Assembly (NCBI GenBank): GCA_944384295.1
Contig: CALWSU010000003.1
Span: 1 to 64,000, forward strand
Reading direction: 5' to 3'
Length of the DNA: 64,000 bases
Source: an uncultured Lachnospiraceae bacterium
Lineage (GTDB): Bacteria > Bacillota > Clostridia > Lachnospirales > Anaerotignaceae
The notes under the pieces: generated by a model
Database searches by the model: none
Told to the model about the DNA's origin: nothing
The model's input: the letters and a program-made list of their open reading frames with translations, nothing else
Part shown: piece by piece, positions 997-61,012 of the stretch
Layout of the letters: each line of letters starts with the position of its first letter
How positions within the stretch are numbered: position 1 is the stretch's first letter
Program-made: the position numbers and the translations under genes

Positions 997-1046
997 AGCA
1001 ACATCTCCTTTTTTTTGATACGGAAGCAGCGCAGCCATTTTTAAAA

Positions 1047-1080
1047 AATAAAAAAACGGCTCGCATCTTCCGAGCCGTTT
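1047..1080 (-). terminator. Intrinsic terminator in the metA leader (candidate attenuator)
   Basis: A 10-bp perfect stem, AAACGGCTCG with CGAGCCGTTT (arms 1071-1080 and 1054-1063), has a 7-base loop and is followed on the minus strand by a run of T. It lies between the leader peptide stop (1104) and the metA start (996). Only 57 bases separate the stem from metA, which is little room for a second promoter, so metA transcription probably has to pass this site. Confidence 0.85.
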
Positions 1081-1103
1081 GATTTACATGAATAAAAAAA
1101 TCC

Positions 1104-1214
1104 TCAGAACGATGACAAAATATATATGAACATCACAAAAAACATGCACATCATCATGCCCATGTTCATCATCATATCCATAGATTCCATTTTGCCAAAA
1201 GCAACAATTTGCAT
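1104..1214 (-). CDS. Methionine-rich leader peptide of metA (36 aa)
   Basis: This short open frame is preceded by AAAGGAG at 1224-1230, nine bases before the ATG. It encodes 36 residues, 12 of them Met (positions 1, 9, 12, 14-16, 18, 20-22, 24, 28), the densest part reading MDMMMNMGMMMCM. It sits about 35 bases after a consensus promoter and 23 bases before a terminator stem in front of metA. That is the layout of a transcription-attenuation leader in which ribosomes stalling at Met codons would relieve termination. The hydrophobic end (FFVMFIYILSSF) means a small membrane peptide remains possible. I know of no named family for it. The reading frame and ribosome site are seen directly; the regulatory role is inferred. 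Confidence 0.75.
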   Translation of the reverse strand: MQIVAFGKMESMDMMMNMGMMMCMFFVMFIYILSSF

Positions 1215-1255
1215 CTTGCGTATCTCCTTTGTTTTTCTTCTGTGGTTTTTTGTTC

Positions 1256-1284
1256 ATTATAGCGATACATCTATGCTGTGTCAA
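1256..1284 (-). promoter_or_regulatory. Consensus sigma-A promoter of the metA leader transcript
   Basis: On the minus strand TTGACA (1279-1284) and TATAAT (1256-1261) are separated by exactly 17 bases, so both hexamers and the spacer are at consensus. Transcription should start near 1249, about 35 bases before the leader peptide ATG. Confidence 0.9.
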
Positions 1285-45802: not shown

Positions 45803-45876
45803 TCGAGGCGACAAGATTTGAACTTGCGACCTCTACATCCCTAATGTAGCGCTCTACCAAGCTGAGCCACGCCTCG
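45803..45876 (-). tRNA. tRNA-Pro, anticodon AGG (copy 1)
   Basis: The 74-base gene folds fully. The acceptor stem is CGAGGCG/CGCCTCG with C1-G72 and discriminator A73. U8, a D-arm with GCTC/GAGC, the anticodon stem CTACA/TGTAG, the loop TTAGGGA (T33, anticodon A34-G35-G36, G37) and a T-arm with TTCAAAT complete it. C1-G72, A73, G35-G36 and G37 are proline identity features. CCA is not encoded. A34 would be read as inosine if deaminated by TadA. It has its own promoter and terminator. Confidence 0.93.
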
Positions 45877-46005: not shown

Positions 46006-46079
46006 TCGAGGCGACAAGATTTGAACTTGCGACCTCTACATCCCTAATGTAGCGCTCTACCAAGCTGAGCCACGCCTCG
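46006..46079 (-). tRNA. tRNA-Pro, anticodon AGG (copy 2)
   Basis: The 74-base sequence is identical to copy 1 and has the same fold, anticodon loop TTAGGGA and discriminator A73. The two genes are 129 bases apart and each has its own promoter and terminator; their 5' flanks are also similar. This points to a local duplication that included the promoter region. Confidence 0.93.
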
Positions 46080-60692: not shown

Positions 60693-60993
60693 GGGCAGTC
60701 CCCTTCCTTGGTATAGAAACAGGACTGCCCAGACGGTCGACAAAAGCAGGCATTCTCATTCTATTTCACAGTTGCGGCACTCAAACAAAAAAGGCGATTG
60801 TTTTCCTTGATATACGCTTATACGCTGTTACACAAAAAACATGACCGCCTTTGACCTTTGTCACAACCAAAAACAAGAAACTGTTTGCACCTTTCAGATA
60901 CATCTTTTTTTATATCTGATGGCAGTTGCACTGCTTCACTTCCGGTCTTTCTGCTCCCCTGTGGTATTCCACAAATCCGTCAGTTACAGAAAG
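60693..60993 (-). promoter_or_regulatory. ZTP (pfl) riboswitch with terminator, long linker
   Basis: Read on the minus strand, P1 is CTTTCTG (60987-60993) with CAGAAAG (60947-60953). The internal loop holds AACTGACGGA (about 60976-60985), P2 is GTGGAATACCAC (60961-60972), and GGGGAG follows. The 3' domain GACCGTCTGGGCA lies at about 60726-60738; its CCGTC can pair with GACGG as the pseudoknot. About 200 bases separate the halves. The terminator stem GGGCAGTCC/GGACTGCCC (60722-60730 with 60693-60701, followed by T6) shares GGGCA with the aptamer, so the two structures exclude each other. Bound ZMP/ZTP would allow pur expression. Confidence 0.85.
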
Positions 60994-61012
60994 CCGTTTG
61001 ATTTACAAATTC

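Follow-up and report, generated by a model that had tools for sequence, protein, structure and literature searches.

A putative leader-peptide attenuator for methionine upstream of metA in two related genera of Lachnospirales

Leader-peptide attenuators are textbook regulators for Trp, His, Leu, Ile/Val, Thr, and Phe. Methionine is a difficult amino acid for this type of control because AUG doubles as the start codon: methionine shortage should deplete charging of both the initiator and the elongator tRNA, which would silence a leader of the trp type. In Firmicutes, methionine genes are known to be controlled through SAM riboswitches, Met T-boxes, or repressor proteins. To our knowledge, not all known leader-peptide attenuators contain a segment that masks the antiterminator arm in the absence of translation.

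Within the Firmicutes, leader-peptide attenuators have been described for His (PMC2965389, PMC9413887) and, at the S. aureus ilv genes, for Leu (PMC5794164), and these cases reveal that leader peptides can replace T-boxes. A Cys attenuator occurs at cysS in Rhodobacterales (PMC8632094). For methionine, the described RNA regulators include an initiator-specific Met T-box at S. aureus metICFE (PMC3771891) and a SAM-I element of Xanthomonas with an additional response to initiator tRNA (PMC7270179), while a survey of Actinobacteria reported no conserved RNA structure upstream of methionine operons (PMC1262725). An earlier note on the DNA studied here, made from the letters alone, knew of no described Met leader-peptide attenuator in this group, and we likewise found none in the open-access literature.

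We analyzed a stretch of 64,000 nt (the window) from an uncultured Lachnospiraceae bacterium (G000 in the genome comparisons), in which leader, terminator, and metA all lie on the minus strand. Table 1 gives the features in window coordinates.

Table 1. Features of the metA leader region and other RNA features of the window.
Feature	Coordinates	Strand	Evidence or remark
Promoter of leader and metA (TTGACA-17-TATAAT)	1284-1256	(-)	12/12 consensus bases
5′ UTR segment CACAGAAG	1237..1244	(-)	Fold model, tentative; candidate partner of UUCUGAG
Leader ribosome site (AAAGGAG)	1218..1230	(-)	Sequence
Leader ORF, 36 codons, 12 Met	ATG at 1214; 1214-1104	(-)	Translation; stop TGA 1106-1104
Met block (MDMMMNMGMMMCMFFVMFI), putative control codons	1181-1125	(-)	Near-invariant in genus
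Predicted antiterminator, 5′ strand	1114-1103	(-)	Pairing fold; CAUC (1114-1111), bulged G, UUCUGAG (1109-1103)
Predicted antiterminator, 3′ strand	1074-1064	(-)	Pairing fold; CUCGGAA (1074-1068) and GAUG (1067-1064)
Intrinsic terminator	1080-1050	(-)	5′ arm 1080-1071, loop 1070-1064, 3′ arm 1063-1054, T-run; 10 bp, 7-base loop
metA, homoserine O-acetyltransferase type	996-76	(-)	Pfam PF04204; NCBIfam NF047918 (MetA_acetyl) above cut-off; conserved start; SD 1011-1006
Two tRNA genes	45803-45876, 46006-46079	(-)	Equal scores; about 130 bases apart
ZMP/ZTP riboswitch	60918-60997	(-)	Just above gathering score

The perfect promoter, the Met-rich frame, and the good ribosome site named in the earlier note were all borne out. 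The promoter had the top score within the first 4 kb in a consensus scan, and its -35 and -10 elements are kept in relatives (11 of 12 consensus bases in G048, a genome of the sister genus). The leader peptide, MQIVAFGKMESMDMMMNMGMMMCMFFVMFIYILSSF, is exceptional in composition: at the base composition of the window, at least 11 Met among the 35 codons after the start would arise by chance with a probability of about 9e-12, and among the 465 window ORFs of 20-60 amino acids its Met fraction (0.33) compares with 0.19 for the next highest.

The start of metA had been placed at 1038, but the sequence MP(L/I)(V/I)I is conserved in relatives and assigns it to the ATG at 996. With the start at this ATG, the T-run and the metA ribosome site lie about 40 nt apart. 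Consistent with the proposal that little room is left for another promoter, the consensus scan detected none on the minus strand between terminator and metA.

This arrangement resembles the attenuators of Proteobacteria (E. coli trp type; his, thr, ilv, leu, and phe) in that a short ORF with many codons for the end product follows a promoter; as in the E. coli trp type, the position of the ribosome would select antiterminator or terminator ahead of a biosynthetic gene. Unlike in E. coli trp, the codons are Met, the block is long (10-12 Met here versus 2 Trp in trp), and the antiterminator arm lies at and around the stop codon, with no conserved partner equivalent to segment 1 found in G000 and G048. 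The Firmicute His and Leu attenuators share the proposed mechanism and the phylum, although they serve another amino acid and other genes, and we saw no sequence relation to them. The Met T-box reads methionyl-tRNA charging and controls methionine synthesis by termination, as we propose for our leader, but it binds tRNA directly, without translation. SAM-I (S-box) elements, including that of Xanthomonas, are likewise RNA controls of methionine genes; they bind SAM and are absent at this locus. Comparison of the leader locus with Rfam gave no family at gathering score and nothing convincing at E values up to 5. There was no match to the T-box (RF00230) or to SAM riboswitches (RF00162 and the other Rfam SAM families), and no T-box was listed before metA, though each genome of the genus has 12-16 T-boxes.

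Six of the seven genomes of the genus contain metA, and the same six carry the leader and the terminator. Both are also found in G048, which belongs to the same family and whose metA, 66% identical, is the closest outside the genus (others are at most 60% identical). As had been suggested for comparison, Met codons and terminator/antiterminator pairs accompany metA in 7 of 7 metA-bearing genomes, six of which are close relatives of one another. G005 and G012, two genomes from these genera that have no metA, also lack the leader, while the neighboring rrf2 and ybaK-like genes are kept. Upstream of the ybaK-like gene of G005, a TTGAC -35-like stretch appears to be a remnant of the lost leader promoter. 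We found no relative that keeps the hairpin without the Met codons, a case that the earlier note had named as counting against attenuation. Nor did the other such case that sequence can reveal, a promoter between hairpin and metA, come to light.

Within the genus, the core M(D/G)MMM(N/S)MGMMM(C/S)M(F/L)FVMFI is almost invariant, while the N-terminal codons and the tail vary. The G048 copy, the only diverged leader found outside the genus, has its own promoter, a different terminator sequence, and a drifted peptide in which 10 of 38 codons are Met; its residues stand in another order and at other distances, and the Met richness was kept.

These comparisons bear on whether the ORF is simply an independent gene for a small Met-rich protein (for example, a membrane or metal-binding protein) with its own terminator, located beside metA by chance. 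Although a hydrophobic Met-rich peptide with its own promoter, ribosome site, and terminator would fit such a gene, it was lost along with metA while other neighbors remain, and metA would be left without a promoter. Moreover, the flanks of the peptide vary freely, the end of the ORF is used in an alternative pairing (see below), and the peptide has no Pfam or NCBIfam match. We consider an independent gene very unlikely.

Beyond these two genera, the regions upstream of 63 further metA genes from the family and order showed no Met-rich leader with a terminator. When 58 genomes of the family and 392 of the order were searched with a covariance model, the matches inspected beyond the genus and G048 gave no further leader; they were either antisense of His-rich repeats or unrelated hairpins that lacked a Met leader. 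Scanning one genome per species (84,980 species) for the codon pattern MMMxMxMMM yielded, among the matches listed, nothing beyond poly-Met frames arising by chance and antisense of His-rich repeats. Since the leader was found only in the two genera and accompanies metA, it probably arose near their common ancestor and has stayed with the gene.

Three further observations concern metA and its upstream region in relatives. In G003, an IS200/IS605-like element (frame start MANSLAHTKWVCKYHIVFTPKYRRK) apparently lies between the leader terminator and metA; it is split over two contigs, at the end of C93 (L031 1660-1940) and the start of C111 (L002 1-500). If the assembly is right, this insertion is a natural uncoupling of metA from the attenuator. 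The metA of G001 (C19:39824-40761) matches as two overlapping pieces with a frame break, which is either a sequencing error or a damaged gene; its leader and terminator are intact. In some other genera of the family (L024, at G016:C11; L025; L016), a terminator-like hairpin lies a short distance upstream of metA, where there is neither a Met-rich ORF nor an Rfam match; it may be an attenuator of a different, undescribed kind.

The variable end of the leader contains one fixed element, as GTTCTGA is invariant in the six genomes of the genus. The ORF of G002 stops 12 nt sooner (TGC TGA CCA GGG TTC TGA), and GTTCTGA is kept past the stop codon. Therefore, this element is not conserved as codons. 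The 5′ arm of the terminator, ACGGCTCGGA, is also invariant, although the 3′ arm reads either CGAGCC or GGGGCC and still pairs with it, which suggests that the 5′ arm has a second pairing partner. The earlier note had proposed such a partner, pairing TTCTGAG, at the leader stop codon, with CTCGGAA. This pairing holds as described for this genome, and an equivalent is predicted in all seven. The helix GATTT:AAATC, which had been thought to assist it, is peculiar to this genome. An extension with better support pairs CAUC with GAUG of the terminator loop.

We folded the RNA segment that begins at the last Met codon and stops just short of the terminator 3′ arm. In 7 of 7 genomes, the lowest-energy fold available before the 3′ arm exists was the antiterminator, whose 3′ strand consists of the inner part of the terminator 5′ arm plus the terminator loop. 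In G000, CAUC.UUCUGAG pairs with CUCGGAA.GAUG (-11.9 kcal/mol). In G001, G003, and G004, UUCUGAG pairs with CUCGGAG and the extension is AUC or AUU with GAU, while in G002 and G006, UUCUGA(G) pairs with (C)UCGGAA. In G048, UCAUC...UCGUUGCU pairs with AGCGGCGA...GAUGA (-17.1), such that both strands differ in sequence and occupy the same place. Compared with shuffled spacers, the fold was significant in G000 (p = 0.014) and G048 (p = 0.006) and not significant in four genomes (p = 0.11-0.15) or in G006 (p = 0.72); combining four lineages gave p = 0.002. When the terminator loop was left out, the energy test was weak (p = 0.06-0.39); its inclusion improved the result for G000 and G048. An antiterminator that would exclude the terminator, conserved with paired changes, is supported by these folds, with modest energies for single sequences.

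We modeled how a ribosome would affect this choice by folding the RNA with ribosome footprints, assuming that transcription starts 7 nt past the -10 box and considering states before the 3′ arm is made. With a ribosome at the stop codon, the predicted probability of the antiterminator was 0-0.13 in 7 of 7 genomes. With a ribosome stalled in the Met block, it was 0.75-0.98 for at least one stall position, again in all seven. These values agree with the proposal that a ribosome at the stop codon would cover TTCTGAG and a stalled one would free it. When the ribosome was placed on the last Met codon, three relatives favored a pairing with the 5′ UTR, which would need to span the ribosome.

Once the 3′ arm was present, the terminator won at equilibrium in every state (0.69-0.88). 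Since it always wins at equilibrium, the switch must be kinetic, set by timing. The same folds could be read as an unregulated partial terminator that sets a constant low level of metA, as equilibrium always yields the terminator and we infer regulation. However, this would leave unexplained both the conserved Met codons and the replacement of the two antiterminator strands in G048, and we give it very little credence.

A model that accommodates these results is that the leader controls metA by ribosome-mediated transcription attenuation and senses charged tRNA-Met, a reading to which we assign a probability of about 0.83. When methionine is plentiful, the ribosome would pass the Met block, reach the stop codon, and cover UUCUGAG; the terminator would then form and transcription would halt before metA. 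When charged tRNA-Met is scarce, the ribosome would stall in the Met block and leave UUCUGAG, about 20 nt downstream, free to pair with the 5′ arm and loop of the terminator before the 3′ arm is made, allowing RNA polymerase to enter metA. The choice between terminator and antiterminator would be kinetic. As these steps are read from sequence and predicted folds, we infer the response of metA to methionine.

One argument against an attenuator is that methionine shortage also impairs initiation, which any leader peptide needs. The folds without a ribosome are relevant here. Before the 3′ arm, the ribosome-free antiterminator reached 0.97 in G000 and 0.96 in G048, and the folds of these two genomes contain no segment of the trp type to mask the antiterminator arm of an untranslated leader. 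Of the earlier proposal of attenuation in the style of trp, the Met ORF, the terminator, and the antiterminator (7 of 7) stand. In the other five genomes, the 5′ UTR may do the masking, as its ACAGA is predicted to pair with UUCUGA in the ribosome-free state (0.59-0.79). In the 5′ UTR of our genome, CACAGAAG may hide UUCUGAG in an untranslated leader, a possibility relevant to the five relatives; in this genome, the fold model does not predict its pairing with UUCUGAG once the terminator 5′ arm exists. Because untranslated RNA of G000 and G048 favors the antiterminator, the leader could read both tRNA pools: failing initiation would also turn metA on, so that the attenuator would respond to initiator and elongator tRNA alike and translation would be needed only for shutting metA off. 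We regard this extension of the model as doubtful.

The codons of the core indicate a constraint in addition to Met coding. At the shared non-Met core residues, the codon was identical in 5 of 5 cases across five genomes, compared to 22% in metA (chance about 6e-4). Since the core codons are frozen at synonymous sites, there is an RNA-level constraint besides the Met codons. This finding bears on nascent-peptide arrest, in which MxMMMxMGMMMxM(L/F)FVMF would stall the ribosome on methionine or S-adenosylmethionine, as TnaC does on tryptophan, with the RNA switch following. While the non-Met G, F, V, F, and I of the block are also conserved within the genus, which speaks for arrest, it is these same positions that are frozen at synonymous sites, pointing to RNA, and in G048 the residues were rearranged in order and spacing while Met richness stayed. 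Furthermore, arrest by methionine would have to lower metA expression, yet arrest before UUCUGAG would raise it. Peptide arrest is therefore very unlikely.

The Met block itself can fold, a feature absent from the earlier note. In the alignment it forms a 58-nt hairpin, in which one A-U pair has become G-C through substitutions on both strands, changing N to S and F to L. Compared to random synonymous recoding, the hairpin was unusually stable in 2 of 4 sequences (p about 0.05 each) and unremarkable in G000 (p = 0.23) and G048 (p = 0.26), and its shape differs in G048. With the frozen synonymous sites, this long hairpin and its compensatory change could mean that the RNA is the sensor, the hairpin and its surroundings being an undescribed riboswitch that binds methionine or SAM. 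However, such a riboswitch would leave the 10-12 in-frame Met codons and the ribosome site unexplained, the hairpin lacks unusual stability in G000 and G048 and is altered in shape in the latter, and there is no Rfam match near gathering score. A riboswitch is thus highly improbable. For the attenuator, a pause hairpin is a plausible role: it may pause RNA polymerase and so keep ribosome and polymerase in step.

The metA leader is best read as a known mechanism with a new amino-acid specificity, and a Met leader would extend attenuation to one more amino acid. A single SAM-I riboswitch also occurs in each genome of the genus, either on a different contig or far from metA (for example, L158 at G000:C13:1457-1556), and SAM-I precedes metK in all four loci read (among L154-L160). 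Since SAM-I is found before metK and not before metA, the two genes seem to respond to different signals. This points to a clade whose pathway may be tied to different signals at its two ends, metA to tRNA-Met charging and metK to the level of SAM.
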